Source: Blastocystis hominis
Taxonomy: Eukaryota; Sar; Bigyra; Opalinata; Blastocystidae
Length of the DNA stretch: 64,000 nucleotides
Assembly: GCF_000151665.1 (NCBI RefSeq)
Contig: NW_013171823.1
Coordinates: 310,001 to 374,000 of the forward strand
Direction: 5' to 3'
The notes under the pieces are model-generated. The model searched no databases and was not told where the DNA came from. It worked only from the letters and a program-made list of their open reading frames with translations. This document shows, one piece after another, positions 1,582 to 30,490 of the stretch. Each line of letters opens with the position of its first letter. Position 1 is the stretch's first letter. The position numbers and the translations under genes were made by a program.

Positions 1582-1643
1582 AAAATAGCGGGGAATGAAT
1601 CATCTCCTGACTTTTGAAACGATTTTCAGTAGGACTTATGTGA

Positions 1644-4162
1644 ATGTGTTTCATTGTAGATACAACACCCATTTTTCATAATTATGAAAGAATCGGCGAA
1701 CCTATGCCATATATAAAATGCGGAAAGGATTATTATATGCAGCGCTATAGTGGAGAGCATGAGAATGAGTATACGTTAATAAATGAGCAGGAAATATGCC
1801 ATTACCAAAATGGTTTATTACTGAATGTATGGAAACTCGAAAACGGTGAAGCAACTGGAGAGTATGAATCGTTCGGTAAGGGCTGTGCGAAATACTATGA
1901 AAGGTACAAACCAGGAAGAAAGAACACACAAATCCATGTTAAGAATAGTAAAGCAGGTTGCATAAAAGAAATAATTGACATGAATACTGAAATTGTGATA
2001 TATCGTGGAGATCTTGATGGTGACTATCGAAGACTGGGTCGAGGAATCGAATTTGATAGTAGTACAGGTGAATTATTATTGGAAGGGACGTGGGCTGAAG
2101 ATCAACTGATAAAAATAAGCCGTATTTTCAATGGTAAAGAAATGACTGAGTTCAATACTACTCAAGACAATTTGGATCCAGTATTGCGATTTCCAGAGTA
2201 TTGCGGTGGATATTTGTACGATGAAGAAACGAATACTTGTTATCGAGATGGGATCGGATACACACTGGACACGAATGGTATAGCAATGATAAAGGGAGTG
2301 TGGGAAAGAGGAGTCGAAGTGAACACAACGATACTGACAACTGGATGGTATAACACAAAAGAAAGTTGTTTGATGGCTGATCCGAACATCGAAAGCATAA
2401 TAATCGCAGCCAATAAATACGAGAAGGAGAGCTATTTGGATCTAAGCAAATACAAGAAGGTAGCAACGATCGAGATAAAAGATCACAATTTTAGTAACAC
2501 AGACCATTTCGATCTAAGTGGAATGAAGGAATTGACCTCATTGAAAATTGGAAACAATTGCTTCTATATAGATGACCGTATAAATCGAATGAATCGCACA
2601 TTTACTATCGTGGATTGCAGTGAGTTGCGTTCGATTATAATTGGCGCACGCAGCTTTTTATACTATAGTGGTGGATTTGAATTGAATCAACTTCCTTCGT
2701 TGGAACTGATCCAAATTGGGAACAAAGAAGAAGATTCGTATAGTTTTTCCTACAGTAACTTAATATTGAAAGGCAAATCGTTTGGAATGGGGATGATGAG
2801 TAGATTTACCCAAATTGAAAACGGTCATATTGGGAAATCATGCATTTGAAACACAAGAATGTATTGAATTATCGAGTAGGAACGAATGTGGTGTGTTTCT
2901 TATTGAATAGATCTTCCTTGTCTGGAAACGCTAAGTCTTGGATGGGCAGCATTGTCAGGACTCAATAGTGGTTCATCATTAGTTATGAAAAGTAGAGAAG
3001 TGAGAATGAAACAATCGAATAGATCTTCCGAATCTGAAAACATTGACTTCCAAAGGGTTCAGTTTTCATTATATTCAATCAGTTGAGTTATTGAGTATCG
3101 AATCCTGAATGATGATAATAGAACAGACATTCCCAATCTCGAAACTGTGGATTTGAAAATACAGGAAGTCATTTCCGATCCATCTTATCCATTTTCGGAA
3201 GTAAAGAGAGCCAAAATGACTAGTAATGAAATGATGTGTTTGATAAACCGAAGATGTTTCTATTCATTTAACACAATATATACGAATATCTGACAAGCCG
3301 ACGAGCAAACAAAGTCTCAAGTTCAGCCAGATAAAGATTAGTGCCAAAGAAGAACTCATAAATATTCCTGATAATTCGTGTAATGACACACATATTTTTA
3401 TCGATATAAACCAAATGGAAGTATTAAAAGAATTGACTATCGGTAAGAATTCATTTCAAGGTGTTGGTGATTTCGATATCCATGATCTAAATGAATTGAT
3501 TGAAATATCAATCGGCTATCATTCATTTGTAACTAATTGTAATCCAAACCCACATGGTTCATTCAATGTATCGAACTGTAAAAAACTGGAATCAATCAAA
3601 TTAGACTCTTTTACTTTCACTCATCATTCAGGTCCATTTACAATAGAGAATCTTCCTTCCTTGCGATATTTGGAAATCGGCAAGATAGGAAGTTATTCTC
3701 TAAATTTCTACTGGGCTTCATTTTGTGTTCGAGGTATTTGTATTGCAACGATTTGAACTAGATCTACCGAAACTTGAATCGATTGTATTAGGAAATGAAG
3801 CTTTCACATTATCTTCGCACACAGTATTTGATAGTATTTTATTGATGTATTGGAATTGAGTGTTTAGATTTGATCTCTTTGAAAAGGATCGAACTGGGAG
3901 AGAAAGCGTTGATGGGACCAGATAATGATAATTGTAGAGTTGAGTTAAAAGGTATAAACAAAGTAAAGGTACAATTGTAGACCTACCGAAACTGAGTAAA
4001 CTCAAAGCAGGTCCAGATTGTTTCAAGGAATGCCGAGCTATAACGGTTTTGAATGTTCCATCGGTTGAAGTGGACATTGACAAGAATTCGTGCTTTAAGA
4101 AAGTGCTTTTTGTGTATATGTCCAATGCCAGTCCATCTCTAAATGAGTGTCTTCCTATCTAA
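1644..4162 (+). CDS. MORN-like / BspA-type leucine-rich-repeat protein (left-arm copy), 755 aa after splicing
   Basis: Exons: 1644-2772, 2804-2875, 2911-2991, 3023-3094, 3127-3222, 3254-3733, 3762-3833, 3868-3951, 3981-4162; total 2,268 nt, exactly 756 codons. Introns are 28-35 nt; all are GT...AG except the first (2773-2803), which would be GC...AG. The N-terminal part (about residues 20-180) has MORN-like patches such as YRGDLDGDYRRLGRGIEFD. The rest is LRR_5/BspA-like, with repeated 'LP-L--I-IG---F' units. Every small exon starts so that the codon before 'LP' (D or N) is split after its first base. No signal peptide or membrane segment is evident, so location is unknown; related LRR families are often surface or interaction proteins. 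The ATG at 1644 is the first in frame; the right-arm copy starts two codons earlier. Function unknown. Confidence 0.7.
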
Positions 4163-4309
4163 TGAGGAAAGAGTTGGTTGGTTGACTGGCTGAATAACTA
4201 GCTAACTAGATAAATGAATGAATGATTGATATGTTCCAAACTGTATAGTAAAGAAAACGAATAATGATGAATAAACACTTAATGATAGATATAGTATAGA
4301 TAGAATATG

Positions 4310-4317
4310 TGTTTGTT
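4310..4317 (+). terminator. TGTTTGTT 3'-end motif of left-arm LRR gene
   Basis: Exact octamer 147 nt after the stop at 4162. None was noticed between 3293 (a stop in the unspliced frame) and this point, which supports one transcription unit across all nine exons. Confidence 0.6.
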
Positions 4318-4478
4318 TGAATGAAGATGTATGATAACTTGTGAAGAATCATTCAAACTGAAATTGTGCTATATTGGAATATCGTATACCAAAGTGTGGA
4401 ATCGAGATGAATGAATGAATGAATACTATATTATACTATACTATTCTATATATGTAAAACAAAGATTCGAAAGCAAAA

Positions 4479-5057
4479 TCACGAAATACCAACAAAACGT
4501 TTATACTCGTTTACAGTGGTTTGAGTTACGATTTTGACAAAATTATCTCGATTTGCAGGTGTACTATCTACAATCTCTGTTCCCAAAGCATTCCGCATTC
4601 TTTTCATAGTTGTTACTATTTCAGCGACATTCACAGGCATAAACATAATTCGCAAGCTTCGAAATTTTCGAATATCATTATAAATACGTTCCCAAACATC
4701 CCTCAGCAATTCTCCATCTTTATTCTTATCTATTTTACAAAAATCAAAGTCTCCATGATTCGGATAATCGCCCACAATCAACATGAGATGATTATATTTT
4801 CGGAATGGTGGCTTTTTCATTTGTTCCAAAGCTCGAATCAATCCTCCTTGAATATCTTCACAATTGCTTCCACATCCAGCACCATCGGCACCACCGGTTG
4901 CTTTGAAGGAAGCTAATTTATTCTTCAAACGAGCAAAATCGCTTGTGATATATTCGTCTTGTTCTCCCACCATATTATCAGCATAGTCTTTAAACTGGAC
5001 GACCTGACCAACAATGCCTCCTTCCGGAACTTCACAATCTGTCTCCAGTTGCTTTAT
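4479..5057 (-). pseudogene. 5'-truncated copy of the giant gene's C-terminal VWA end
   Basis: Reading right to left, the frame from 5057 to the stop at 4479-4481 encodes about 192 residues nearly identical to the end of the giant protein (genomic 21942-22520); the last 164 residues are identical. The copy begins inside the VWA domain, after the metal-site D-T-T-G-S motif, and an in-frame TGA lies just beyond the boundary near 5070. It has no visible promoter or start context. It is best read as passenger sequence of the duplicated arm. A short protein from the methionine at 4973 cannot be excluded. Confidence 0.85.
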
Positions 5058-5820: not shown

Positions 5821-7299
5821 ATGAACTTAAGCTTTACGAATGGTATTTATTGTTATTCATATACGATAAGTCCCGAATATAGTTTATCGCAATATGAGCA
5901 AAGAATTTCCGTACTTCCTATTTTAACTGTTAAACTCTAGAATGACTTTGGTTTACGTTATAAAGATATTGTTTTCTTTAATCGTAATGTAAAAGTGCAA
6001 AAGGATCAAAGAATACAACATCAATGCCAAGATGGTGATGTTTTGCAGATAAGGAAGGGTTTTCGATATAAGATTAATTGGAACAACCAAATATTTGAAT
6101 GCATATATTACACAAACATTCCCTTTGAGAGTCTACTTTTTTATTTCTTGACAATAAACCATGTTATCAACGATACCAGCTATAAAAGCAATTTTTATTT
6201 TGACGGGGTACAAAGAAACGCAGTAATTCCTTTTCAAGGTGTATCCGGTGTTTTAGTAGTAAAATTCAATGGTAGTTCATATGTCTTATTCATCTATTAT
6301 AGAGATACCTACAGTCAGCGATAGAGGAAAAATGGCACGAAATGGTAAGGACTATTATTCTTGATGACATCACAGAGATGATTGACCAACAAAGAAGTGA
6401 TGTCTCCTATATTCAGCGTTCCTTGAGAGAGAGTAGCGCGATGACTGTGAGCGATGGGAGAGAAGGTAATGAAATGGCATATAATATGACATCTCGAACT
6501 GGGATATCACAAATGTCTTATCACGATAATATGAAAGTCATTCGGGTTTTTAATAGTGCTGGGGACATAATAGATAATGTGAGATTCGATAAATCCATTT
6601 CTGTATTGTCACTCTTGGATAGTATATCATATAAAATTGGTTACTCTTCATCACTCTTTTGTACAAAGAGAGGTTCGATTGTTGTAATAGGAGATGAACT
6701 TAATACATCGGCGGATATTCAATGTAAACTATGTGATCCATGTAGATATTTATTGTAGATTTCGACTATTGTTCAACTCGTACGATTCGGATCACTATCG
6801 AAGATAAGTTGAATCATACCACTCAAGAAATTGCAGTTATAGAAAATGGGAAGATTGAAGATTTATTATCCGAGTTACAAATTCGCCCTATGGAGTACGA
6901 TATTCGTGTAAATGACCAACGTGATATCAGTATAAAGGACTCGTTTGTATCTCAAAACATCAGAACAAACGATAGATTAGTCTGTATTCTTTTTTATGTA
7001 GAATGCTTTATGTTATAGTATACAAAAAGGAAATCGAAGGAAAGTGGGTAGAAATTATAGATAGGAGAAGTGAACAAAAAAGGAAATATACATATGATGG
7101 CAGTGTTACTGTTGAGGATTATTTGAGATCGTATTGGAAAGTAAGTGATGGGGAAAGAGATAATTCCAGAGTGTGTATAACAAGGAATTTGATGTGGCAG
7201 CTCAATCCACAGTCGTTATTACGCTACTGAACAGTACAGAGCCTGTTGACTTGCACCACACAATCTCATTCTGGAAGCGTTTTCCAATATCATTTGAAT
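5821..7299 (+). other. Five predicted tandem ubiquitin-like folds (exons 1-7)
   Basis: Spliced residues 1-430 read as successive beta-grasp patterns. The first is clearest: a beta hairpin from the start, a helix SLSQYEQRISNDFG, then 'DIVFFNRNVKVQKDQRI' and 'CQDGDVLQI', which parallels ubiquitin's 'L-F-GK-L-D---L--Y-I-DG--I-L'. Others begin near residues 70 (IFECIYYTN), 205 (MKVIRVFNSAG), 279 (TIRITIEDK) and 350 (KWVEIIDRR). None ends in a diglycine, so they are domains rather than conjugation precursors. Domains 3-5 cross introns, and the pattern appears only after splicing, which supports the exon model. Confidence 0.6.
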
Positions 7300-10200
7300 G
7301 TTTGGATATTTTTGTTATTTGATTGTAGTAAAAGCGCCATCAGACAGAAATAATGAGGGATCTAATGAAATGATTACAACTTCTAAGCCTCAATTCGATA
7401 GTATTGATATATCATCTGAAAGTGAAAGACTCACACAATCATCTATGAGCGGAGGACTCACACAGTCACCTACTGTCGGGGGCTTAGCAAAACCAAAAAG
7501 CGGAGGATTCACACAATCATCTATGAGCGGAGGATTCACACAATCACTTACTGTTGGGGGCTTAGCAAAACCAAAAAGCGGAGGATTCACACAATCATCT
7601 ACTGTTGGGGGCTTAGCAAAACCAAAAAGCGGAGGATTCACACAATCATCTATGAGCGGAGGATTCACACAATCACTTACTGTTGGGGGCTTAGCAAAAC
7701 CAAAAAGCGGAGGATTCACACAATCATCTACTGTTGGGGGCTTAGCAAAACCAAAAAGCGGAGGATTCACACAATCATCTACTGTCGGGGGCTTAGCAAA
7801 GCCTAAGAGGAGTTCATCTACCTCTGTTGCCTCCACAGAACCTTATCAAACTAAACGTACCAAAAAAATAAAGCATTTATAGCATAGACCAAGAGAGCAT
7901 TATTTTTTTAAGAATACTAATACTGTATTCTTCAAAAGAACTTTTTTTTCAGGAGTCTATTTTCGGTGCTAGGGTTGATAAAGAGAGACAAATAACTAGC
8001 CTAATTAATGTAATTCTTGTTGTTTTTCTCTTTTGATGTAGAGGAATTTGCAATCTGCAGATAAAAATAAATGGTATATTTTGAATAGCATAGGTGAAAA
8101 GAGACAATTGTCTGAAGTCATTACAACGAATGATTCAAGCATCTCCTTGGTTGTTATACCTGTTACATTCTATATTCATTATTATGCTTAGACTACTAAG
8201 TTAAATGTCCGGCTTTTGGAGATCAAATCTATTAACGCTTCCACTGCTTTTCCACAAGAATTATTCACCCCTTATCTATCCATACCAAGCTTATCCTTTG
8301 AGGTTGTTTGTAGCAACTTAGTTTATGCTTGATTTGAAGGGAGTTTACATCAACCTACTATTGTTAAGTGGAAGGTTATTTTCAAGGATCCTAAATTTAA
8401 CTTATTAGAAACAGTGACAATTTCTGGTTGAAATACTTATAGATTGTAATATATAGACGCCATAAAAAGTATTAGCACTTTTCTTGTGTTTGATTTCACA
8501 TTAAAAGAGTTTCATTTCGCTTCTCTTTTAATTCCTTGTAATCGCTAAGTTAACTTGAGAATGTAGATAATTACATTCAGAAAACAGGTATTGGCGAGTT
8601 TATGGTTATTCTGAAAAACACTAGAATAGAAAAATGTAAGGAACTTCGTATTAAACTAGGTATTTGACAACTTACAGTTATTATTTATAGACGAAACGGA
8701 TAAAGAGAAGGAAATAGATGATATTGCTGATATTTGCAGGTCTACAATTAATAATAACGAAATACCATTTCTAATTTATATTAATAATGTTGAATTAAGT
8801 CAGTATTTCAAAGATTCACCAAAGCATAAACTAACCAGTGAAAAACCCAATTATCACGTAGTATTCGGTCTGTTCCTTATCATATGTATTATATTTAGAA
8901 CCTGCAGATTTTGAAAATGAAGAATTTGTTTTATCTAATGAGAACAAACGACAGTATAGTGATGATGAAACAATTATGGTTTGCGAAGCTGGAAGTACAT
9001 ATTGCTATACAGAAATATTTGACGTTTTACAAGTGAGCTATAGCAGCCAACTTGCTGATGCAAGTTTCTACTCCCTTCAATCTGCCTTGACAGATGGGTT
9101 TGAATCGGCTCACAGGGGAGATGTGATTCGTTTTTCTGGAAGGCCACTTTTTGAGAGGCAAGAAAAGGCATTCATTCTTCCACTTATCAATCATAATGAA
9201 GCTCGAACTCATAACATCATTCCTAAAACAATCTATTTCCACTGCATTTCTGGAGTGAAAAATGCTATGATTGGAATTCGATCTCCACTCGATGAAAATC
9301 AAATAATCACAGTACACTGCAGATCTGATGTGCTAATTTTCCATTCTACAAAGAATACTGCAAAGATAATTAAAGCTCATCGATCCTGCAAAGATGAATG
9401 GGTGTACATTAAGTCGAAAGCCTATCGATATGTGGAAACAATGGAAGAAGATCCTCCCTTTATCAGAGAAACAAATCAAACCCGAATTCGAAATCAAATC
9501 GTGGAAGATGTGATTCAATACAACATTCCAGTGGTGATTGAGGGAGTGACTTCGTCAGGCAAAACATTCACAGTGGAGCAATACTGTCGACGTTCTCTCG
9601 TTCCCTTTGTGAGATACAACTTCAGTCCTTCGTCCACAACTGAGGAATTGCTTGGAGATATGGTGATTACGAACGATGATACAGAGAAGATCAAATTCCA
9701 GGACGGAGCTTTCACGGATGCATTCATTCATGGCAAACTGCTATTGATGGATGAAATGTCTCTGGCTCCTCCTTCTGTGGTTCAGAGTGTGTTATCGTAT
9801 TTGTTTGGCAAGAAGATTCTTCATGAAGGCAAGGATGGAAGTGAAGAACGTGTAATGCATCGAGATTTCCGCATTATTGCTACTCAGAATCCTGCTGGAA
9901 GTTCATACAAGCGAAGCAATCTGTCTTCTGCAATTCGCGATTGTTTCCGATTTATCACTCACGATTCAACGAAACAGAAATACTTCCCAATGATTGACAG
10001 AGAGGAAAGATTGGAAATCATAACGGCGATGTTTGGAAGAGATGCAGAAATTGGAGAAAGAGTGTGTGAGATTCATGATCGAGCTGATAATCGAAAGAAT
10101 GTGTCTGGAAGTGAGATTGATAAAGGAAAGGATTACACACTTCGAGATTGTAGTCGAACAAAATGGATGATGGAGACACTGATCGACAAAGAGAAAATCG

Positions 10201-13200
10201 GTGAAAGCGAAGCATTGGATCGAGCTTTACAAATTGCATATAATGAAGATTTGAAAACAAATCCAGTATTCAAAGCGGATATTACTTTCAGTAAAGCTGC
10301 TTTAGACAAGGAATGCTGGAAGGATGTGTATGATCGAGTTCGACTAGGATTGGAATCTGGATGTCATGTTCTATTGATTGGAGAAACAGAATATGTATCT
10401 CGAAAGTATTGTCGAGCAATAATGGAGATAATGCAGAGTGAAAAAACATCCTGTGAAGTGATTCATTGCAGTTCGACTTCTTCAACAGAAAGTGTGATTG
10501 GAAGCTATTCGCTCGAGAAAGATACTAAGGGCAAACCAGTTCCTCGTTTCCGTCCTTCTCCATTGCTTAAAGCGATTGAAAATGGAGGTATTTGTGTTCT
10601 TCAGTCGATGCATTTGATGAAATCGAATGTGATCGAGCGATTGAACTCTGTGTTGGAATTATCACCTGCAGATGGCCATCATCATGTAGTTCGATTTGAT
10701 GAACGTCGAGAAAGACCGGAATTCGAAATGAGTCCTAAATTCCGTGTAATCGCAACAACGTCTGAAAAGGGTTTGTTAGCTTTTTCTCCTGCCTTGAGAA
10801 ATCGATTTTTGGAAGTATTTGTGAGTCACGAAGATGCAAAGCGATTTGAAAACTCTCCCAAGCTTAAGAATTGTGAAAATAGAGAAGAAATTGATATCAC
10901 GATTCAAGATTATTCTTCAACAAACGACTGGTTCAAGCAGCAAGAACTCCAGCGAATGGTTTATTTCGCTACTCATTTGGCTGGATATCAATTGGAAAAG
11001 CCGCTAGTGGATATGTTCGCTAAACAACCACCAATTCCTGAACTGCAATCCCTTCGAAGCCATTGGACTGAAGCTTCAAGATTGTTCTATTGTATTTGCA
11101 AAAACAAGGCTGTGGCATTGTGTGGACCTAGAGGCAGTGGAAAGTCCTATGCAGTTAACAAAATGTGTGAACGGATAAAGAAAGTTAAGTGTCAAGTGTT
11201 CAGTGTGTCTGGAGAAACCGAGTTTTCCACTCTGATGGGAAGTATGAATATGAATGGCGATTTCCGAGCTGGAAAACTGCTCCAAGCTGTAGAAAGTGGA
11301 GGATTAGTGATATTCGAAAATGCTGAAAACATGTCAGCAGAATTACTGGAAATGCTTGATACTGTTTGTGATCCTTTCACTAATGAGTTCACTTATCCAG
11401 CCTCTATCAATCATTCAATTCATCCTTCATTCCGAGCTTTGTTCGTGTTCACAACACGTCGAGTGAATTCGTTGCCTTCTCTTCCTGCTTATTTCGATAT
11501 TTGTGAAATGAGTCCAATCCAGAGTGATGAAGCGAAAGAGCTGATGAAAAGTGAAATCTGCAAACGATTATGTGATCATATTGATAGTGGCGAGATTCCA
11601 TTGAATGAAGTATTCACTCTGGATAAGATTTGCTTCAATTCTCCTCATCCAATTTGGATTGTTGCAGCATTGTTTGCAGATCGTTTGGATCGCAAAGAAC
11701 TACTGGAGAGAGTGATAGAAGAATGGAAAAAGACGGCTGACACGGAAATAAAGAAAGAATTAGATTTAGCATATGATTTAATTACTATTTCAACAGAAAA
11801 CACTAATGAGTTAATCAATGGCAAACAACATGAAATAGAAGAAGAGGAAGAAGAAAAAGAAGTGTTAGAAAAAGAATTCAGTGATGATGATTTGGAGTTA
11901 CATGATAGTGAAATAAAAGCAAAGGCACATATTGTTACGGCAAAGGAATCTACAACTGCTAAAGGTTACACTATACTCCAACGTGGTCCTCTCGAAACAA
12001 CAGTTCCAATTGAATACTCAAAGCTTCAAAAGGTTGATTCTTCTGTATTAACTGCATTATTTACTATTTCTATTTCCAATTTCAAGCAAACTCACCTTCC
12101 TGTGTTACTGGTTGGCGATTCAGATATTGCTTCTGAAGTCACTCATTTGCTGTTTCCCAACGCTACTCATATGGAAATGTCCCGTTCAATGGAAATGTCT
12201 CACACATTTGGTGAGATTTCTGTTTGTCGTAAAGAAGACATTCAGTACATTCTGAGACAAACATCGATTCAAAATGTTGATGGAACTCCAATGGAAGTAT
12301 ATCGAGAATATCTGAAGGGGTTATTGCATGACAAAGCAAATGATAAATCATTGCTCATGATGCGTCCTGGTCCAATTCTCCGTTCGATAATGAGCAACAA
12401 TTCGATCGTGTTGAACAATATCAATCTGTTAAATGATCGATTGCTTCCTCGATTATATTCATTGTTGTTTAGTTTGGATTCGCATAAGTTTAGTCTATTT
12501 GAGGATTATTCCCAAATTCAAACAGAGATTCTTGGTAAATCGGTGAATGCGATTGTAACATGCGAAGATCCAGATTATGGAAGAGTTGCAAAGAAAGACC
12601 AATTCATTCAAGTGTTTTGTCAACCCTATTCTGAATTAGAAAGAGCGAAATATAAGTTTGAAAATCGAGATGACTATCCTTTACACATTCTACGAAAGTC
12701 AAATATGCTGAAGAATGAATTTGTGAATGCTGATAAAGTGATTCCATTCTATCTTCGATTCCTTCAATCTGATTTGGCATCTCGAGAAAATCTGATTCAA
12801 ATGGGAAGGATGAATAAGGATCTGAAGGAAGTGAGTGAATTCCTTCAATCAAGCAACAAAAATGATGCATTGATAGAGGATTTGAAGAAAACTCTATCAT
12901 TTCTGTTTACAAATGATGTAATTGAGGACATAGAATCTAGCCTTTATTCTAAGCATATTTTGGAATCTACAAAGACCACGATTCAGCTATTGGCATCCAT
13001 TGTATTGGCAGATCGAAGTCATCTTCCTCTGATTCTAGAAGGAGATCCTGGAGTAGGCAAAACTGTTTCTGCTGAGAATTATTTCGTAAAGGAGAATCTC
13101 GTGTATAAGCGAATCAATTTTTCGAATACCATAACGATTGATAGTTTGTTTGGATGCTACACGATTGTGAATGGATCATTACAATTCAGAGATGGAAGTA

Positions 13201-16200
13201 TTACAGAGCTATTGAAAAGAGGAGATCACTCAGATCAACGAATTGCATTGCTATTAGATGAAGTGAATTTGGCTCCATCAGATGTGCTTGAAGTATTACT
13301 CACTCTGATTCGTTGTTATGTGAATCACGATCCATTCCAAGTTCCAGGAGGCGATTTGATCAACATTCCATCGAACATGCTGATCATTTGCTGTATGAAT
13401 CCAGCATCCATGTCAGCAAATCGCAGCACATTGCCTCGTCAATTTTACAAGTATTGTATTTATCATCGTGATTTGAAATTCACACTGAATGAATTGTTCC
13501 TTACTGCAGGAAACATTATATGTGATGATTCGGATCCAAAATCGATAATAAAAACTAAATCAAAGGCAATATCTGAATCTGAAGATAAAACTAAAAGTAA
13601 CGATGAAACTAATGCTGAATCTGAACCGAAACGTAACCAGATTCTTGATTTGTTTGAATATTCCTACAATTCCTATCAAAAGACATCGATTCCATTCTCA
13701 CTTCGAGATGTATTGAAAGTAGCTCAAATCCTGGCGAATGGAAATGATTTGATTCTTGAAGCCGCTTTATGGTTGGTGTTTGCTTGTCGTTATGAAGAAT
13801 CGGAGAGAAAAGAAATCGAGAAGATATTGAAGCTGGAAGAGACATTGAAAGTCGATATTATCAAACAAGATAATCACTGTGTCGTTAGCGGTTATTGGGA
13901 CATTAAAACACCAAGCAAGTATTCAGATTTATTTAGAAAGAATTGTTTCACTTCAACAGAGAAAGTGACGATATTCAAGTTGAGTCTTGCTTTGCAATCC
14001 AAACGAGCCATTTTGGTTTATGGTTCTTCTCCCTCTGGCAAATCGTATTGTATTTCGAATCTGGCATTGATGTGGAATAAACAATGCACTTCGGTGTTTT
14101 TGAATCACGAAAGCTCTCCAGATGTGTTCATTGGTCGAAGTACTCTTGGAATTGATGAAAATGGAAATGAATGTATCAGATTCAGAGAAGGTCCACTGCT
14201 GAAAGCAATGGAAAAAGGAGATTGGATTGTGATCGAAGATATTCATTTGGCAAACAATGATGTGATGGAATCGCTGAATTCTCTGTGTGAAGAAAATCCA
14301 ACATTGAAGGTATTAGCAGGAAATGAAGAAATAACGTATTCAATGCGACCGAAAAGGGGTGAGAATAGAATTGACGAAGCATTCCGAATCTTCTTTACAA
14401 TATCGGACAATACGTTGAAACACTTCACTGGACCATTCTTGAGTCGTTGTGTGATCGTGTATTGTGATCCAATATCGACTCAAGCAGATGTTCAAGAAAT
14501 TTGCCAGATTAATCGATCAGTACATAATCCTTGTAATTTTGGAATTAAAGAATCGGAGACATTCCGACGGTGTATTCGAGTGATAAACAGCAAAGAAAGA
14601 GATGCATTCTTGTATGAATTTGGATATGAACCGAAGAGAAATACTTTGGTTTCAAAGATCGAAGTTCCTCGATCTATTGAAAACTACTTATCCGACTTTT
14701 TAAATAGTGCATATAAACTTTCCGATACAGAAAAAATGAATCGAATGATTACCATTATGGAGAAGATTTGTACAAGTACAAAGATTGTATTCACTGTTGG
14801 ATATGTACTCTCTTTACTATACCGTTGTATAACACATTTTCGAGAACATTTCATCTATTATGTAATTAATTGTGCAATCCAAGTACTTGAAATGAAAGAT
14901 CTTCAGAATTGTATGATGAAGAAACAAGAAGGTAAATATGCATGTGTTCTTCGTCGTTGGTATTTGATACCATCGATTAACCCTAAAATGAGAAAAAACT
15001 ATACGATGCCTGACTGTAATTTTGAATTGAGTTATCCAATTCAAGAATACTTTGATATTCCAACAACAGAGCAATTCAGATACTTGGAATTATTGTTTAT
15101 TTGTGATATAGAAGAGGAGTTAAGTATGTTTATGGAAGATAAAACATTGAATGATTTAGTACTTGTAGTTTTTGCTATGTTAGATACCAGTGAACGCAGC
15201 GATATAACTGAACAATTGATGAAGACTATCATAACCATCAGAAATCAATATCTCAGTATTCGTAAGAGAGAATCGATTCTCAAAGGAAGGGCGAGCTCTA
15301 TGGATTATTATGATATGAAAAAGCAGATCGACTCCATTTATGAATCTGTTGAAAGCTTTCCAACCGAAATAAAAGAATCAAAGCCAGTGAAAGAACTATT
15401 AAGTACTCTGGAGTCCACAAAATCGGCTGTAAAGAAATATATTATGGACCATGCAGATAATGGAGATGATGAGCAGGGGATGAAATTCAGATTCACAGAG
15501 GCAGAATTCTATTGTGGTAAAAACAATACTTTGAAGGATTGCATGAGACAGGCATTTGGAAATAATATGATTGATAGTAAAACCTATAAAATGTTGAATT
15601 TCAATGTAATCGAAACGAAGTATGCAAAATATGAATACAAGTCTAGTACCAACGAGTTTTTAGTCAAAATATCTCACCTAATTTACAAGCTAAAATCATT
15701 CAAAAACTATCCATTCATTTTGAGTGAATATACAGATGTATTGAAAGAATTAGACCTGAATTTAGCCGATATTTTGAAAAATTTCGGGCATTCTGCCGAT
15801 TGCCTACCTCCCTTGATGACCATGTTGAATGTTTTATTGAAAAAAGAAATGGAAAAACTGGAATGGACAAAGCTGTTAGAAGATTATAGTGAGTATCCAT
15901 TTGTAACTCCTGCTGAAGTATCTCAAGGGAATTTTGAAGCAGCTATTGAAATGCTGTTTGAAAGAGATTGGTATGATTCCTACTGGAAGTCAATTGATGA
16001 TAAAGTGAAAGAAAAATCTGAGGCATGCTTGGAGCTTAAAAGGAAATTGGTCATACAAGCCTTTTCCACTGTTCAGCCAAAATCAGTTGAATTGCGAGTT
16101 CCATTGATTTTAGAAGCTATAGATAGTTACAGTGATCTACATCTTTTTGATTACAAGGAGATATCTCAAGTGGATATCTGGTGGAAGTGCGATATTGCTT

Positions 16201-19200
16201 CTCTTGTACCACCTGCTACCACGATCCCAAGCATTGTTCTTCAAATGGAACAACTACTACACAATCCAGTAAATCCTCCACATGACGTTATGCTGTTTCT
16301 ATGGAGTACTGAATGTCCCTTAAAGATGAAGGACAAATTGGCTATTCTTTGTCCTCGTAAGCGAACTATGGAAGGTAGTATTGTCATGGATATGATGAGC
16401 GTTAAAGTATTACGTGATTCGTTTGCTCAGGTTTTCAAATCGATCAACAGCATTGATGATCTAGTCAATAAAGTCATTGCCAATGCTCAAGCGAATTGCA
16501 AATTAGTTGTTGAGAAGCTACAGAGAGAAATCAAGGATGCAGAAGAAAAGTATAAAGAAAATCATAGAGCATTTGAATCACAACGGAAAGCTTTAGACAA
16601 GAAGAAAGACGATCTTGTCAAAAAATACACTCAAATCGCAGAAAGAAAGACAAGAGAAAAAGGAATGGTTGAACACTTTGAAAAGCGAAATGAAAATACT
16701 ATTAGAATGCTTAGCTATATGTATGCCGTTAACAATATTAGGGAAGATGAAGTTGCATCTTTTCTGAACAATGAACCCTATCAACAGTATGAAATTAAGA
16801 TGAATGTCAGCAAGTATTATCACCCCTTCGATTTTCAAATGATATTCATACCGAAGAATCACAAACTTGTGAATCAAGAAACAGTTGCTACGATCACGTT
16901 ATTACCTCCCAGTGATGTTTGTAGTATGCTACAAAGAAATATTATCCAAATATCAAATGATTTCGCGTCATATAGTGTGAATATCAATAATGGTTATTTG
17001 TTAATTTTACCATTGGCACCGTTTAAGTGGAAAGTCACAATGCACATTGAAGGGGTAGATGTAATGGACAAAGAAGGGATATTTTTGGCATATTATACAA
17101 ATACAAGAAGTTTTCTCTGTCAATATTGTGTCACAAAATCACACTGGGTTACTGGTAACTATCAGGAATATGATTGGGAAATGTATTGCATTTTAAATTG
17201 TCTGAAATGCATGAAGCATCTTATCAACGTATTTGAGTTAAAGTACTGCATTCCTATCTCTGAACAGCAATTAGGGAAATATAATCGACTTCATTTTTTA
17301 TATTCCGCCAATTACACATCATCCATGATATATTTCTATTGCTATGATCCATATACTTGTGAAATCTTCAAACCCACTTACTATTCCACTTACTACTATG
17401 TATTAAAATGCAACGAAATCAAATCAGCAAATGATATTTTACCGTTCGATAACGTTGCATGCGATTCTCGTAAAACCTACTGGACTCATCACGACTTTAT
17501 TAGCTACGGATATGACTTATATCCGATGTCTGCTCTTGAAAATGAGGCAATCGATGATGTGAGCAACTACAATAAAGAACTTGATGATGTACTGGAGCTT
17601 GAAAAGCAAGTTAATAGTATGAAAGATAATATTGAAGTGCTAAATGAGAAACTTACCAATATGAAAAATCAAGTTGGTAGTATTGCGGGCTATTTCTTCC
17701 CAAGAAAAAGGGATAAGACATATAAAATCTCGATTGACCATTCCTTGAATGATGTCATCGTAGTACTTTTCGATGGAAAAACAGCATCCATTTGCTTACC
17801 TGAAAATAAAATGTATGTTCTGCCGAACAGTTACGAGGGAGATGATGGAAATCAGATTGAATTATCTTATTTGTCAACCAGCGAAGATGTATATTTGGAT
17901 CTGCAAGGTAGTGATTGTGATATTTCTAGACGATCGTCCCGATTTGTTTTTGTGATGAAAGATAATGACATTGGGACAAAAAGAATCAAACTAACAGCTT
18001 CTGTTTATTTAGCAATTAGTCAACAAATATTGGCAAAAGAGGAATTTTATTTAGTGTATGAAAGAAAACCTCTGCCCGACCTTATAATGACTTCTGCTGT
18101 CTGCTCATTTACTAAATATAAAAGAGATCATTACTGTCTATACCCAGAATCAGTTCCCCTGAATGTCAATGTTTATGCAAATGGTAATTACACGTTTTAT
18201 ACTAATATTGATAAAAGGACTCAAATATTAACATACCCATTCATTGAAGTGTCATCGTATGCCTCAAATCCATATGTGTACAAAAACTATGGCAATTGTT
18301 TCACATGGGATGAAAAAGGATTTTCTGTGTTTAACAAAGAATACTACAGAAATGCTGTCAAAATCACTGTCAAGGCTCAAACAAGTCCTTCTACCTCTAT
18401 CAAAAGACTACAATCCAAGTCTATAAGCGAGTTCCTATCTGCTTTTTCTGACCTATCTCTTGTTATCTTGTCTGCAAAGAGCAAAGACCAAGATACAATT
18501 CTACAAATACTGAATAGTTGTTCGAGTACTACTATGCTTCCAACGATTAGAAACGCTGCAAAATCTGTATTGAACATGGTATCGAACCGGGGATCATTAC
18601 TAGAGTGGAATTCTACTGTGAATAAAGTAAAAAGAGAAGCCATAAAGGTTGAGGAGCAACCGGAAAATAATGCTGAAGAAGCAGAAGAAAAGCTATATAC
18701 TGTGAATGATGATGGTGAAGGTGAAGAGGAAAAAGAGGAGATGCATGCAAAGTACGTCGTTCATGTATCTGAGCAACTAAAGAATGAAGTGCAAAATCGT
18801 GTCGCCAATATGGTTGAAAATGAAATGGCTGAGCAAGAAGATCTAAACACGAATCAAGAGAAAAACGATTCATCAACCAAGGATACGCAAAATAAAGAAG
18901 AAAAAGAAGAAGAGTATAAGTCAGTAAATTACAGGGCATATCTCGAAATAATGAACAAAATGAGTATGGATGAAATCTTCAAAATGGTCTATAATCGACG
19001 GATGACAAACAAATACATCGAGCCATTGAACACGACAAATACATTAACTACAAAAAAACTTGGGAACAAAAAGATGGTTATTAATCAATCTATTGTTGAT
19101 GCAATAATTGGCACCTCAGTTCACTTGATAAAGAAGCTAAATGAAATGAACTACATGGGAAATAGACTTCATACTACAGTCAATATTATTATTGATACCA

Positions 19201-22200
19201 ACTGCAGTTTGCGGAAATATAAACTTCGTATGCGAACAATCATATCTTGTATTTTGATAACGGTAATAAGAGAGCTTGGGATATCATTCAATTTGTTTGT
19301 ATTTTGTGGAAGATACAGAGGTGTATATATTCCTTTAGATAATCGATCGATTGTTGAAATTATCTCTTTGCTGTTTGATTTAGAGGGAGTGGTAAAGATG
19401 CCATCGACTCCACTGGATCTTTTAACAGTTAAGGGGCAATTCGATGAGAAGGATCCAACAGTGATCGTGAGTGATGGATTCAGTGAGCAGCTATTGTCAG
19501 AGAAAAACAAGAAAATAGTAGACATATTTAGAACATATACCAAGTTGTTTTTGTTATGCGTCAAAGGAACAAATAAAGATGAGGTACTTAGTGCATCAAA
19601 TCAATCATTACTTGAAAGTTTGCTGACCGCGAAATTCAATGACAATCTAATCACCATCGAAAGAGTGGAAGACATTGTTAATCTATTAAATCCAAGCATT
19701 ATCAACCTGTTCTATGATACGACACAAGTGAACATGAATGTGACAAAGGACATAATTAATCAGATCGATTATGCTCGAGATCTTTATGATAATCTGCAAG
19801 TCATATTCAAAGTGAACAAATCCATAGTTTCGATCAATACAATATCAAGTGCAAATTCAGCTAAAATGATTGATATTTCTGATGAGGATTTGCTTGTTTA
19901 TCCCACAACAACAGGTGGCTCTGCTGTATTAAAGAAGTTGAATAGCGTTATTCAAGGTGAAAATCTATTTGATGCAATGAACATGTCTCTGTTCGTTCCG
20001 AATAAGTCGACAGCCTTTGTTGCATCCACTTCAGGAACATCGATTCATATGGCAAACTACATCAAGTATGTTGTTAGCAAGATTGGAGATGGCAAGTTTT
20101 TCAAGAAGCTTGGAAGTGAGAAGATTCGAAGCTATAATGCAAGTATTGTGATTGACTGTTCTTCGATCGCATTCAGTGAAACGAACCGAGTTCATTCATT
20201 GATCACAATCTTTTTAATCCTTCGAAATCTGAGCAATATGCAGCTACCTTGCATTGATTTGTGGGTGGCATCTAGAGATATTATTCGTGTTGCTACTGGT
20301 ATTTCATCGATGGATTTATGGGAAAGCAATATTGTGGCTGCGTTGTATCAACAATTATTGTCTCCTTGTCAAAATACTTGCTTGCCAGATTGTATTCGCT
20401 ATGCTTGTAGCACCTGTAACGCTCGATCGTTCCAATCTGTAATGATGGTGTTAACAAATGGTGTGTTATGTAATGAATCCAGAGAAGAGATCAAGTCGAT
20501 TGTAAACGGAAATGAAATAACTTATCTTGGAGTTGGACTTGGATTGTATTTGTGTGGATTTGAAGATTTGTTCCCCACGATGATTTGGAATTCAAATCCT
20601 ATTCGATTGTCTGAGACTTTCTTCACACTAACTACTCCAACCATGAACAAGGATGTAAATGCCGTACCAGAGAAAGAAATATGTGAAGCAATGACGAATG
20701 ATCCGATTACTCAAACCTATAATAACATAATTCAAGAAATATGCGGTATTCGTAGCTATTATGAAACTACATTAAGCCAAATCCGTTTTGTTGATGAAAC
20801 GGATGATGCAAATGGAACAGGTAAAGCTAAAGTAATTGGCGATATAAACGACAGTAAGTATGATTTGGGAGTGGATGGAGCTTTTGGTCACTATTCGATT
20901 TTGATTATCATTCTTTATTTGTGTCGAGAGGAAGTGGATGACAAAGGAAAAACAATAGATGAATATATCACGGAGGATGTATTGTGCAATGGTAGGGTGT
21001 TGAATGGGAAAGCCTTTTCACCTATTCTAAAACTTGGGAGTCATGAAATTGATGGAAAACCTATTGGAAAAGGATTCAAGATTGCCTTTGCTTATGATTA
21101 CAAAAGCGCTATCAAGGAATTAATGAGTGGCAGATATCGGATGACATTCATAACCTGTTCTCCTGGAGATGGAATTATGGCAAAAGAGTGTGATAATGAT
21201 GCCAATCAATATGCCGATGCTTTTGTGAGTTGCGTTCATGAATTCAACATAAGAGGAGGTGGCGTATTCTGGTTCTTAGAGAACTATCCTTTCACTTATG
21301 AGGCTGATTTGTACTTCAAGACATTCTATGGATTTGAAGCAGTGGGCGACAAAGAGTACAGTATCAAGGGCGGAAATGTTATGGTAAGATCTAAAGAAAA
21401 TGTACCCACACCTGGTCACTTCGTTTCGATCGGAGGAAAAGCGATGGATTACACTAAGTTATCCAAGTTAGATTTTGGTATCAAGCGAATCTTTGAAGGA
21501 AGAACCCTATGCGTGTTGAATGAGCATGAATTTGAAAGAATCGGATTCCGGATATTTGCGAAGGAAAGCGAGGGAAATGCTTCAATTATGGTGAGAGAGA
21601 AGCAAGAAGATAGTAGAGAAGGCAGAATGATCCTTGATACAGCTGCATCCAAGCTATTTTTGGAATTCACAGAAGATGGAACTGCACGCTGGATCAGCAA
21701 TGCTGCGGTTTGGCTGTGTAACACCGAAGAATTTGAAGAAGAACGATTATTGGATAACAAACTGGTATCTGGAATCAAAATGGATGAAGTAGTTCTTCCT
21801 GACAAGAAAATGATGGAATTGCGAGAAATCACGGATGTCAAAGAAAAGCGATTCTGTTTGAGTATCGTAATAGATACCACAGGATCAATGGGCGGATTTA
21901 TTAATGCAACTAGAGACAATATAGAAAGAATAATCGATAGTATAAAACAATTGGAGACAGATTGTGAAATTCCGGAAGGAGGCATTGTTGGTCAGGTCGT
22001 CCAGTTTAAAGACTATGCTGATAATATGGTGGGAGAACAAGACGAATATATCACAAGCGATTTTGCTCGTTTGAAGAATAAATTAGCTTCCTTCAAAGCA
22101 ACCGGTGGTGCCGATGGTGCTGGATGTGGAAGCAATTGTGAAGATATTCAAGGAGGATTGATTCGAGCTTTGGAACAAATGAAAAAGCCACCATTCCGAA

Positions 22201-22520
22201 AATATAATCATCTCATGTTGATTGTGGGCGATTATCCGAATCATGGAGACTTTGATTTTTGTAAAATAGATAAGAATAAAGATGGAGAATTGCTGAGGGA
22301 TGTTTGGGAACGTATTTATAATGATATTCGAAAATTTCGAAGCTTGCGAATTATGTTTATGCCTGTGAATGTCGCTGAAATAGTAACAACTATGAAAAGA
22401 ATGCGGAATGCTTTGGGAACAGAGATTGTAGATAGTACACCTGCAAATCGAGATAATTTTGTCAAAATCGTAACTCAAACCACTGTAAACGAGTATAAAC
22501 GTTTTGTTGGTATTTCGTGA
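5821..22520 (+). CDS. Giant UBL-array / six-AAA+ / triple-VWA protein, midasin-like, 5,411 aa after splicing
   Basis: Sixteen exons: 5821-5910, 5941-6271, 6303-6344, 6376-6723, 6759-6983, 7019-7140, 7170-7299, 7329-7856, 7888-8009, 8042-8161, 8192-8309, 8340-8426, 8457-8537, 8567-8659, 8691-8867, 8899-22520 (sum 16,236 nt, 5,412 codons). All introns are GT...AG, 29-35 nt; the 6724 donor has an in-frame alternative at 6733. Order: ubiquitin-like folds (1-430), GGLAKPK repeats (about 465-590), more UBL-like folds (606-870), six AAA+ modules (about 1060-2780), coiled coils (about 3400-3460 and 3760-3800), acidic stretch (about 4120-4210), VWA-like domains near 4304, 4624 and 5197. AAA1 and AAA5 have intact Walker A and B; AAA2 and AAA4 lack Walker A. 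Six AAA modules plus C-terminal VWA resemble midasin (Rea1/MDN1); RNF213 and dynein are alternatives for the ring, but both lack VWA. Function unknown; substrate remodelling is an inference. Confidence 0.85.
7444..7806 (+). repeat. Tandem repeat coding for GGFTQSS / GGLAKPKS linker
   Basis: Exon 8 of the giant gene carries two short modules, 'GGFTQSxTV or xMS' and 'GGLAKPKS', in alternating order; GGLAKPK occurs six times. DNA copies are almost identical, which indicates recent expansion or homogenisation. The encoded chain is rich in Gly, Ser, Thr and Lys and should be disordered. It separates the first five UBL-like folds from the later ones and the AAA+ ring. Confidence 0.9.
7888..8867 (+). 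other. Second set of ubiquitin-like folds (exons 9-15)
   Basis: Spliced residues 606-872. Exons 9-10 give one clear beta-grasp pattern: strands IIFLRILILYS and FFQESIFGARV, helix RQITSLINRNL, strand KWYILNSIGEK, then SSISLVVIP. Exons 11-15 give two or three more divergent segments of similar size (TTKLNVRLLEIK..., FMVILKNTRIEKC...). Seven introns of 29-32 nt lie in under 1 kb, far denser than in the rest of the gene. Confidence 0.5.
9480..14640 (+). other. Six-module AAA+ ring region of the giant protein
   Basis: Full-protein positions: AAA1 Walker A GVTSSGKT at 1087, Walker B LLLMDE near 1156, sensor-like ATQNPAGS; AAA2 has GETEYVSRK in place of Walker A (1366); AAA3 GPRGSGKS (1614) but a weak Walker B (VIFENAE); AAA4 GDSDIAS, no Walker A (1944); AAA5 GDPGVGKT (2253) with LLLDEVNLAPSD; AAA6 GSSPSGKS (2580) with VIEDIHLAN. 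The DE-x-N/S-LAP motif and ATQNP-type sensor are typical of the MoxR/midasin/dynein (AAA_5) branch. AAA1 and AAA5 look catalytically complete; the others look structural or nucleotide-binding only. Confidence 0.85.
16480..17690 (+). other. Coiled-coil hairpin with Cys-rich tip in the giant protein
   Basis: Two heptad-like segments, at about residues 3399-3462 (CKLVVEKLQREIKDAEEKYK...) and 3760-3800 (LDDVLELEKQVNSMKDNIEV...), flank about 300 residues with a cysteine cluster (CQYCV, YCILNCLKCMKH). The layout recalls the antiparallel stalk with a terminal domain in dynein, but it lies after AAA6 rather than between AAA4 and AAA5. Confidence 0.45.
19150..22480 (+). other. Three von Willebrand A-like domains at the C terminus of the giant protein
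   Basis: VWA-1: strand VNIIIDTNCS (Asp at about 4304), later TVIVSDGFSEQ; the metal motif is D-x-N-x-S. VWA-2: strand ASIVIDCSSIA (Asp about 4624), later MMVLTNG; D-x-S-x-I, so a metal ligand is probably lost. VWA-3: LSIVIDTTGSMGG (Asp about 5197), D-x-T-x-S, with VVQFKDYAD, KATGGADGAG and LMLIVGDYPNHG, closest to the VWA of VwkA-type alpha-kinases. Only VWA-3 looks able to bind metal in the classic way. Between VWA-2 and VWA-3 lies a Rossmann-like stretch (TFITCSPGDGI ... RGGGVFWFLEN) recalling glutamine-amidotransferase-like folds, function unknown. Confidence 0.65.
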
Positions 22521-22533
22521 TTTTGCTTTCGAA

Positions 22534-22541
22534 TCTTTGTT
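22534..22541 (+). terminator. Variant 3'-end motif of the giant gene
   Basis: TCTTTGTT, one change from TGTTTGTT, 14 nt after the stop at 22520. It is the nearest candidate for this gene's poly(A) signal. Confidence 0.4.
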
Positions 22542-22681
22542 TTACATATATAGAATAGTATAGTATAATATAGTATTCATTCATTCATTCATCTCGATTC
22601 CACACTTTGGTATACGATATTCCAATATAGCACAATTTCAGTTTGAATGATTCTTCACAAGTTATCATACATCTTCATTCA

Positions 22682-22689
22682 AACAAACA
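22682..22689 (-). terminator. TGTTTGTT 3'-end motif of right-arm LRR gene
   Basis: Exact octamer on the minus strand, mirror of 4310-4317, about 147 nt after the LRR stop at 22837. It lies in the 316-nt gap between the convergent giant and LRR genes. Confidence 0.6.
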
Positions 22690-22836
22690 CATATTCTATC
22701 TATACTATATCTATCATTAAGTGTTTATTCATCATTATTCGTTTTCTTTACTATACAGTTTGGAACATATCAATCATTCATTCATTTATCTAGTTATCTA
22801 GTTATTCAGCCAGTCAACCAACCAACTCTTTCCTCA

Positions 22837-25361
22837 TTAGATAGGAAGACACTCATTTAGAGATGGACTGGCATTGGACATATACACAAAAAGCACTTTC
22901 TTAAAGCACGAATTCTTGTCAATGTCCACTTCAACCGATGGAACATTCAAAACCGTTATAGCTCGGCATTCCTTGAAACAATCTGGACCTGCTTTGAGTT
23001 TACTCAGTTTCGGTAGGTCTACAATTGTACCTTTACTTTGTTTATACCTTTTAACTCAACTCTACAATTATCATTATCTGGTCCCATCAACGCTTTCTCT
23101 CCCAGTTCGATCCTTTTCAAAGAGATCAAATCTAAACACTCAATTCCAATACATCAATAAAATACTATCAAATACTGTGTGCGAAGATAATGTGAAAGCT
23201 TCATTTCCTAATACAATCGATTCAAGTTTCGGTAGATCTAGTTCAAATCGTTGCGATACAAATACCTCGAACACAAAATGAAGCCCAGTAGAAATTTAGA
23301 GAATAACTTCCTATCTTGCCGATTTCCAAATATCGCAAGGAAGGAAGATTCTCTATTGTAAATGGACCGGAATGATGAGAGAAAGTAAAAGAGTCTAATT
23401 TGATTGATTCCAGTTTTTTACAGTTCGATACATTGAATGAACCATGTGGGTTTGGATTACAACTAGTTACAAATGAATGATAGCCGATTGATATTTCAAT
23501 CAATTCATTTAGATCATGGATATCGAAATCACCAACACCTTGAAATGAATTCTTACCGATAGTCAATTCTTTTAATACTTCCATTTGGTTTATATCGATA
23601 AAAATATGTGTGTCATTACACGAATTATCAGGAATATTTAGGAGTTCTTCTTTGGCGCTAATCTTTATCTGGCTGAACTTGAGACTTTGTTTGCTCGTCG
23701 GCTTGTCAGATATTCGTATATATTGTGTTAAATGAATAGAAACATCTTCGGTTTATCAAACACATCATTTCATTACTAGTCATTTTGGCTCTCTTTACTT
23801 CCGAAAATGGATAAGATGGATCGGAAATGACTTCCTGTATTTTCAAATCCACAGTTTCGAGATTGGGAATGTCTGTTCTATTATCATCATTCAGGATTCG
23901 ATACTCAATAACTCAACTGATTGAATATAATGAAAACTGAACCCTTTGGAAGTCAATGTTTTCAGATTCGGAAGATCTATTCGTTTGTTCCATTCTCACT
24001 TCTCTACTTTTCATAACTAATGATGAACCACTATTGAGTCCTGACAGTGCTGCCCATCCAAGACTTAGCGTTTCCAGACAAGGAAGATCTATTCAATAAG
24101 AAACACACCACATTCGTTCCTACTCGATAATTCAATACATTCTTGTGTTTCAAATGCATGATTTCCCAATATGACCGTTTTCAATTTGGGTAAATCTACT
24201 CATCATCCCCATTCCAAACGATTTGCCTTTCAATATTAAGTTACTGTAGGAAAAACTATACGAATCTTCTTCTTTGTTCCCAATTTGGATCAGTTCCAAC
24301 GAAGGAAGTTGATTCAATTCAAATCCACCACTATAGTATAAAAAGCTGCGTGCGCCAATTATAATCGAACGCAACTCACTGCAATCCACGATAGTAAATG
24401 TGCGATTCATTCGATTTATACGGTCATCTATATAGAAGCAATTGTTTCCAATTTTCAATGAGGTCAATTCCTTCATTCCGCTTAGATCGAAATGGTCTGT
24501 GTTACTAAAATTGTGATCTTTTATCTCGATCGTTGCTACCTTCTTGTATTTGCTTAGATCCAAATAGCTCTCCTTCTCGTATTTATTGGCTGCGATTATT
24601 ATGCTTTCGATGTTCGGATCAGCCATCAAACAACTTTCTTTTGTGTTATACCATCCAGTTGTCAGGATCGTTGTGTTCACTTCGACTCCTTTTTCCCACA
24701 CTCCCTTTATCATTGCTATACCATTCGTGTCCAGTGTGTATCCGATCCCATCTCGATAACAAGTATTCGTTTCTTCATCGTACAAATATCCACCGCAATA
24801 CTCTGGAAATCGCAATACTGGATCCAAATTGTCTTGAGTAGTATTGAACTCAGTCATTTCTTTACCATTGAAAATACGGCTTATTTTTATCAGTTGATCT
24901 TCAGCCCACGTCCCTTCCAATAATAATTCACCTGTACTACTATCAAATTCGATTCCTCGACCCAGTCTTCGATAGTCACCATCAAGATCTCCACGATATA
25001 TCACAATTTCAGTATTCATGTCAATTATTTCTTTTATGCAACCTGCTTTACTATTCTTAACATGGATTTGTGTGTTCTTTCTTCCTGGTTTGTACCTTTC
25101 ATAGTATTTCGCGCAGCCCTTACCGAACGATTCATACTCTCCAGTTGCTTCACCGTTTTCGAGTTTCCATACATTCAGTAATAAACCATTTTGGTAATGG
25201 CATATTTCCTGCTCATTTATTAACGTATACTCATTCTCATGCTCTCCACTATAGCGCTGCATATAATAATTCTTTCCATGCTTTATATATGGCATAGGTT
25301 CGCCGATTCTTTCATAATTATGAAAAAAGGGTGTTGTATCTATAATGAAACACGTACACAT
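22837..25361 (-). CDS. MORN-like / BspA-type leucine-rich-repeat protein (right-arm copy), 757 aa after splicing
   Basis: Mirror of the left-arm gene, exons in transcription order: 25361-24227, 24195-24124, 24088-24008, 23976-23905, 23872-23777, 23745-23266, 23237-23166, 23131-23048, 23018-22837 (2,274 nt, 758 codons). All splice sites of the left copy, including the unusual GC donor at the first intron, are preserved. Protein differences are few (for example Cys/His near 'YIK-GK', Asn/Ser and Thr/Ser in the later LRRs). The ATG at 25361 is two codons upstream of the left copy's start, where the left arm has ATG-TGA. It is convergent with the giant gene, about 316 nt apart. Both copies are open throughout, so both may be expressed. 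Molecular role unknown. Confidence 0.7.
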
Positions 25362-25417
25362 AAGTCCTACTGAAAATCGTTTCAAAAGTCAGGAGATGAT
25401 TCATTCCCCACTATCTT

Positions 25418-30307: not shown

Positions 30308-30490
30308 AATTATCTCTCTACTTTGATCTAAGAATGATTTCTAACAGATTCGAGACCTACGATTCATATTTCCTTGCCTAGATTCAATAAAACAAATATG
30401 ACAATAGAAGGAATGATATTGAGTCATGTGATTCACATTTGACACGTGCCAAGAATCGTACGAAAGCTGAATTTTCTCACGAATGAATGA

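Follow-up and report, generated by a model that had tools for sequence, protein, structure and literature searches.

The DNA analysed here, called the window below, is a stretch of 64,000 nucleotides (nt) from Blastocystis hominis (RefSeq assembly GCF_000151665.1, contig NW_013171823.1, positions 310,001 to 374,000, forward strand). A giant gene predicted on its forward strand (5821-22520) encodes an N-terminal array of repeats, some of them apparently ubiquitin-like (UBL), followed by six AAA modules, a long linker and a VWA-type tail. We modelled this gene by dynamic programming from the codon use of its long open reading frame (ORF), short GT..AG introns and an intron-length prior of ~31 nt. 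The model has 16 exons (5821-5910, 5941-6271, 6303-6344, 6376-6723, 6759-6983, 7019-7140, 7170-7299, 7329-7856, 7888-8009, 8042-8161, 8192-8309, 8340-8426, 8457-8537, 8567-8659, 8691-8867 and 8899-22520) and 15 GT..AG introns of 29-35 nt, and it predicts 5,411 amino acids in one frame. An earlier first-pass annotation had claimed this structure, and the independent model was identical to it. Shuffle controls agree: 199 of 200 dinucleotide shuffles had no spliced path, and the remaining one scored -221 compared with -29 for the real sequence. The same model found no spliced path in the reverse complement or in two other stretches of the window. Without the length prior it returned 14 introns and 5,403 amino acids, and individual intron boundaries are therefore prior-dependent. 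Positions 8862-22517 are open in one frame, followed by a stop; read from the ATG at 8976, the ORF has 4,514 amino acids. The accessible part of PMC5608401 gives 30 bp as the mode of subtype 7 introns and TGTTTGTT as the Blastocystis poly(A) motif. Sense-strand TGTTTGTT is absent between 5821 and 22520, the nearest copies lying at 4310 and 26557, and five paralogue stretches (~46 kb) contain no sense copy and 4 antisense copies. That the predicted UBL-rich N terminus, ring and tail form one spliced gene is confirmed by this modelling.

Repeats of this family were sorted by eye into seven types, and by eye the window copy has six, all on the forward strand. Type 1 (5839-6060) is split by the intron at 5911-5940 and is followed by type 2 (6061-6270), type 4 (6531-6723), type 5 (6776-6983) and the intron-split type 6 (7045-7299). 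A low-complexity Ser/Thr/Gly/Lys linker of tandem units (7329-7856, exon 8) then precedes type 7 (7917-8161, also intron-split). Paralogues on contigs C14, C34 and C8 (copy C8b) have a linker at the same place, and types 4, 6 and 7 have counterparts in paralogues.

Are these repeats ubiquitin-like? Profiles of the repeat types were scored against 11 aligned ubiquitin-like sequences, with 34 windows of the same protein family as controls (best control, 15.25). The comparison favours the repeats, whose borders, unlike those of the controls, were drawn by eye and with knowledge of the UBL pattern. Types 1 (E 1.1e-5, score 29.8), 3 (0.0021, 19.7) and 5 (0.0026, 19.2) scored above all 34 controls. 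So did type 2 when a repeat from the distant paralogue on C13 was added (E 0.011, score 16.2), but not without it (E 0.14, score 11.0). Types 4 (13.4), 6 (12.5) and 7 (8.1, at background) did not exceed the best control, nor did C13 repeats 1, 4, 5 and 6 taken singly (8.5-12.0). With a smaller set of 5 ubiquitin-like sequences, only types 1 and 3 were above controls. In a search of PDB sequences, the type 1 profile had 7 matches, led by a 2'-5' oligoadenylate synthase chain (E 0.012) and including ubiquilin-2 (0.87), Rps31e (0.99), and acyl carrier and phosphotransfer proteins; some of these matches we take to be UBL-type chains. Types 2 and 3 found only unrelated proteins there, and type 5 found none. 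The 13 sub-threshold Pfam families, from a scan that had no control set, include YukD, Rad60-SLD, SAMP2, Ubiquitin_5 and GABP-alpha, which we take to be beta-grasp families. Thus, of the UBL-rich N terminus claimed at first pass, types 1, 5 and, with the C13 repeat, 2 outscored controls, whereas types 4, 6 and 7 did not. By profile comparison, support for ubiquitin-like descent is good for type 1 and fair for types 3, 5 and 2. Types 4, 6 and 7 may be called ubiquitin-like by position and pattern only, and the repeats may adopt a beta-grasp fold.

The six AAA modules span 9468-14607 (+). Their approximate bounds are 9468-10302 (AAA1), 10317-11022 (AAA2), 11052-11922 (AAA3), 12057-12852 (AAA4), 12987-13872 (AAA5) and 13977-14607 (AAA6). 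Pfam AAA_5 (E 1.9e-57 over five stretches), collinearity with the midasin ring and the motifs together support the six-AAA+ ring that the first pass had described. Motifs were read in 8 Blastocystis-type rows, comprising four copies from this genome and four relatives. Wherever these rows cover them, AAA1 and AAA5 have Walker A and Walker B intact; AAA3 and AAA6 retain Walker A but lack DE in Walker B, which in the window copy is EN or ED; and the Walker motifs of AAA2 and AAA4 are degenerate. The ring profile matches a Tritrichomonas-type family at E 1e-97 and midasin, collinearly, at 7.6e-63 over 1,507 columns.

Downstream of the ring lie a fast-diverging linker (14622-18641, +), an acidic stretch read from the translation (18642-18974, +, approximate) and a tail with up to three VWA domains. 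VWA-like domain 1 (19062-19724, +) has DTNCS at the position of the metal ion-dependent adhesion site (MIDAS), and VWA-like domain 2 (20052-20684, +) has DCSSI, a degenerate MIDAS; the bounds of both are approximate. A further domain (20712-21794, +), alignable in relatives, separates VWA2 from VWA3 (21822-22517, +), which carries DTTGSM ... GDYPNHG. Pfam VWA_4 found VWA3 at E 1.1e-5 and 25.5 bits, below the cut-off of 27, and Pfam had no match for VWA1, VWA2 or the intervening domain. A glutamine amidotransferase-like reading of that domain, a guess by eye, had no Pfam support and was dropped. In profile comparisons with the midasin tail, VWA2 matched at E 0.003 for the Blastocystis family and 7.7e-7 for its relatives; VWA1 is weaker, the relatives' counterpart matching at 3.2e-4. 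Three VWA domains had been claimed: VWA3 stands, if below the Pfam cut-off, as does VWA2 by profile, but VWA1 is weakly supported. VWA2 is the counterpart of midasin's MIDAS domain, yet it reads DCSSI, DCSSL or DCKSS, with a full DxSxS in none of the 8 Blastocystis-type rows; by position, 12 of 13 Tritrichomonas-type relatives inspected do carry DxSxS. VWA3 is DTTGSM in six of the seven rows that cover it, the exception being P0006. The tail profile as a whole matches the Tritrichomonas/environmental family at E 1.7e-65 over 995 columns and midasin at 0.003 over 237 columns.

The gene belongs to a large family. A search of its own genome (18.71 Mb, 40 contigs), in which the locus count is a lower bound, found at least 14 close paralogues including the window copy, the 13 others being 64-87% identical to it over aligned parts. 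They lie on C2, C5, C6, C8 (two), C9 (the window), C14, C15, C20, C23, C24, C34, C36 and C38. From 14 copies of ~16 kb each in 18.7 Mb, we estimate that the family takes up ~1% of the genome of this widespread gut microbe. Open frames are shorter on C5 (2,801 amino acids), C24 (3,110) and C6 (4,024) than in the others (4,179-4,961). The last 388 residues, used as query, matched fully in 10 of the 13 other copies and partially on C5 and C23, with no match for C20. An intron-rich spliced path lies upstream of all 13, with 109 predicted introns of modal length 30 nt (34 of 109); the C8b path begins part-way, and its first introns are probably beyond the gene. Five more copies followed far upstream (C2, C8b, C14, C34, C38) have an array of the same kind, although array 5' starts are uncertain, with low model scores far 5' in C38 and C8b and a C34 path that overruns the likely start. 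The arrays differ in make-up: C8b has all seven types, C38 has types 1, 2, 3 and 7, and C2 lacks types 3 and 7. In C34 (L045, L028) a block of types 4 and 5 is doubled in tandem and the two units are near-identical, which suggests that arrays grow through recent internal duplication.

C13 carries one distant paralogue (28-32% identity; ring ~30% identical). Its N terminus, comprising the array and the pre-AAA region, is collinear with that of the close copies (E 9.3e-27 over 765 columns). C13 repeats 1, 2, 6 and 7 best match types 1, 2, 5 and 6 (repeat 2 against type 2, 8.4e-7); repeat 3 is closest to type 3, though the match is weak, as are those of repeats 4 and 5 to other types. A sense TGTTTGTT stands just ahead of this array, after a stretch that by eye resembles a different gene.

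Divergence among the close copies is mosaic. Across 91 pairs of 14 copies, the median proportion of synonymous differences (pS) is 0.289 in the pre-AAA region, 0.093 in AAA1, 0.131 in AAA2-3 and 0.165 in AAA4-6, and it rises to 0.626 (91 pairs) and 0.72 (90 pairs) in the linker. When four of the 14 copies were compared from end to end, with up to 6 pairs in each window, pS was 0.61-0.81 in the array, 0.05-0.32 in the ring, 0.43-0.85 in the linker and 0.30-0.74 in the tail, with dips in the tail to 0.30-0.44 around VWA2 and to 0.41 at 4951-5025. The ring is thus homogenised and the ends are diversified, with arms, linker and much of the tail near synonymous saturation. Environmental relatives P0003-P0004 follow the same order, at 77% identity in the ring, 49% in the linker and 73% in the tail. 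At amino-acid identity of ~0.75-0.8, ring windows have a pS of 0.26-0.31 and VWA1 windows 0.64-0.67. Constraint alone is therefore insufficient, and because protein constraint would not lower synonymous differences in this way, gene conversion between copies probably keeps the ring uniform. The accessible text of the subtype 7 genome paper raises gene conversion for near-identical duplicated blocks and does not mention midasin, AAA, dynein or ubiquitin (PMC3129679). A uniform ring beside near-saturated arms makes this family a clear case, open to testing, of concerted evolution acting domain by domain.

Among known systems, midasin (Rea1, MDN1) is the nearest in layout, with six collinear AAA modules per chain, a long linker, an acidic stretch and a C-terminal VWA. 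The differences are several. Midasin has a single MIDAS domain with DxSxS, whereas this gene has three VWA-like domains, an extra intervening domain and DCSSI at the MIDAS counterpart. The catalytic motifs of Rea1 are in AAA2-AAA5, according to the accessible part of PMC11603028, while here AAA1 and AAA5 are intact and AAA2 and AAA4 degenerate. Unlike midasin, the gene has an N-terminal UBL array and is multi-copy, and a separate midasin-type locus exists in the same genome. Rsa4 and Ytm1 also bring UBLs to a six-AAA/VWA motor (PMC6624252, in the portion available), but their UBL is on the substrate and acts in trans, whereas this array is within the motor chain. The UBL-VWA-motor partnership, in which midasin acts on substrate-borne UBLs, could therefore be studied here in one polypeptide. 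The dynein heavy chain was rejected (Dynein_heavy D6 at 23.5 bits against a cut-off of 30.5). RNF213 is likewise a giant chain, with a dynein-like AAA core; it was rejected because the 17 Pfam families matched by the 4,514-residue ORF (E up to 1) include no RING or zinc finger E3 module, and the gene differs from it also in its VWA tail. Among the Blastocystis genes tabulated in the single-nucleotide polymorphism section of a survey is a 'Midasin-like protein', not further specified (PMC9896827, seen as an excerpt).

The closest collinear proteins are Tritrichomonas musculus M9Y10_041465 (P0007) and 42 relatives, most of them unnamed environmental sequences, which share the ring and a 995-column tail (9 and 13 members aligned, respectively). 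We group proteins into this family chiefly by collinearity; treating DxSxS in VWA2, which the Blastocystis-type rows lack, as a further defining feature is a choice of ours. This large, mostly environmental family (P0007, P0032-P0073; 3,250-6,640 amino acids) has AAA modules and VWA domains, and its aligned members also share the domain between VWA2 and VWA3. Of the 43, 24 contain a recognisable Walker A pattern of AAA1, and in 21 of these it begins at residue 50-257, leaving no room for such an array. P0051 and P0060 have a Pfam kinase domain, and P0059 and P0070 begin Lys/Glu/Ser-rich. The first-pass suggestion of an undescribed machine holds in part: the combination is real, and a literature search of open-licence PMC papers found no description of a UBL array joined to six AAA modules and VWA domains, but the six-AAA/VWA chassis is common to the Tritrichomonas/environmental family. 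The novelty therefore lies in the UBL array, the expansion to 14 copies and the mosaic pattern of divergence. Together these proteins point to an undescribed six-AAA/three-VWA family in protists.

On sequence evidence, we lean towards a family of giant midasin-like AAA+ proteins with diversified docking arms and a ring that gene conversion keeps uniform. The copies traced over their whole course share the long linker, the three-VWA-like tail and an N-terminal array of varying make-up. By analogy with midasin, the ring may have remodelling activity. ATP hydrolysis, probably at AAA1 and AAA5, would move the linker and tail as in Rea1 and pull on a partner held by a VWA domain (analogy from the accessible parts of PMC11603028 and PMC6624252). 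A tail VWA, most likely VWA3, would grip one partner, and the UBL array would recruit a second or dock on ubiquitin-binding proteins. Because the arrays have diverged and are differently composed, the copies may serve different partners, coupled to a common motor. A bolder version, which we regard as rather unlikely, is that of a constant engine with variable arms: a motor held uniform by gene conversion in at least 14 loci while its arrays and linkers shuffle and diversify, serving as a recognition repertoire through which many different targets or invaders are coupled to the one remodelling motor.

Several observations weigh against the favoured family of midasin-like motors with UBL docking arms. 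The array was observed in this genome only. A 904-residue N-terminal model from the C14 copy found nothing at E <= 0.001 among 8,000 database candidates scored, all of them 0.55-1.75 times the query length, and in the Blastocystis sp. Blastoise relative P0006 the N terminus has no UBL signal and can be aligned only in the part immediately before AAA1. Pfam cut-offs are not reached by any repeat; across 29 repeats of types 1-6, the lowest sub-threshold E is that of TEP1_CUB2, a non-UBL family, and five C13 repeats had no UBL match in Pfam. The by-eye repeat borders, the failure of types 4, 6 and 7 against controls, the four copies behind the end-to-end comparison and the incomplete DxSxS of VWA2 count on the same side.

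Could the UBL exons instead form a separate gene, with the giant protein beginning at about position 8976 or at a Met inside the chain? The C14 protein as annotated (P0002) does start within the long exon, single introns shift with the prior, and exon 9 of the window looked weakly coding. However, in all three copies inspected (C14, C34, C8b) the linker and the first half of repeat 7 share one open exon. The intron-rich upstream models in 13 other copies, five with the array, the lack of a poly(A) motif between array and ring, and the collinear C13 N terminus also argue against two genes, which we consider quite improbable. It is less probable still that the gene is the Blastocystis midasin, or a duplicate of it, acting in 60S ribosome assembly, even though its best solved-structure sequence matches are midasins (E 6e-40) and the rings are collinear. 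A separate midasin-type locus lies at ~1.315-1.320 Mb on C13, with AAA_lid_7 matches down to 6.5e-17; Pfam lists AAA_lid_7 for named midasins and not for P0002-P0007. A quick ring tree of 24 rows (midpoint root, long branches flagged, C38 left out of the seven family rows) places all nine midasin-type rows, two of them unnamed, across one branch (SH-aLRT 100). With the weak match of the tail to midasin and the different set of intact AAA sites, these results led us to reject midasin identity. A search with PF21108 for midasin had no match anywhere, controls included, and is hence uninformative.

The mosaic pattern could also arise without gene conversion, if the genes had duplicated recently and their arms had then diverged very rapidly, perhaps adaptively. 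The arms do diverge non-synonymously as well (proportion of non-synonymous differences ~0.4-0.5 in the array), but synonymous sites in the arms and linker of the same genes are near saturation too, so faster protein evolution alone is insufficient and we think this explanation unlikely. A different doubt concerns what the array binds. A UBL repeat might bind, through a metal ion, the tail VWA of its own chain or of a neighbouring molecule, making the protein autoinhibited or self-assembling. Rsa4 and Ytm1 UBLs bind Rea1-MIDAS via Mg2+ and a UBL glutamate, in the part of PMC6624252 available. DTTGS and GD are kept in VWA3, and by eye 13 of the 16 type 1, 2 and 5 repeats have an acid just before the last predicted strand. 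However, UBLs in general often have an acid there, which counts against this idea, and the window's own type 2 repeat lacks it. VWA2 is without the full DxSxS in every Blastocystis-type row, whereas the Tritrichomonas-type relatives, which mostly have that motif, show no UBL array. Binding in cis has its appeal, but the degenerate VWA2 weakens the case, and we hold it to be doubtful.

The gene is flanked by an inverted repeat of 3,477 nt with 28 mismatches (99% complementary), whose arms (1581-5057, -, and 21942-25418, +) lie 16,884 nt apart and include a leucine-rich repeat-type ORF. The right arm begins inside VWA3, and the last ~190 codons of the gene recur, inverted, in the left arm; over the 191 codons compared, the two copies differ by 2 silent changes and an Ile/Val replacement. 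If the arms recombined, the gene would be inverted but would still have a complete 3' end. ORFs 24153-25388 (-) and 1644-2846 (+) are each other's inverted-repeat copies and are related, at ~30% identity, to ORF 29021-30340 (-), which matched leucine-rich repeat models just below their cut-offs. Further downstream, 9,899 codons are open in one frame at 30569-60265 (-); a Pfam scan covering 5,900 of the residues gave the armadillo-type families ARMC5, ZER1-like, LRRK2 ARM and Arm over cut-off.

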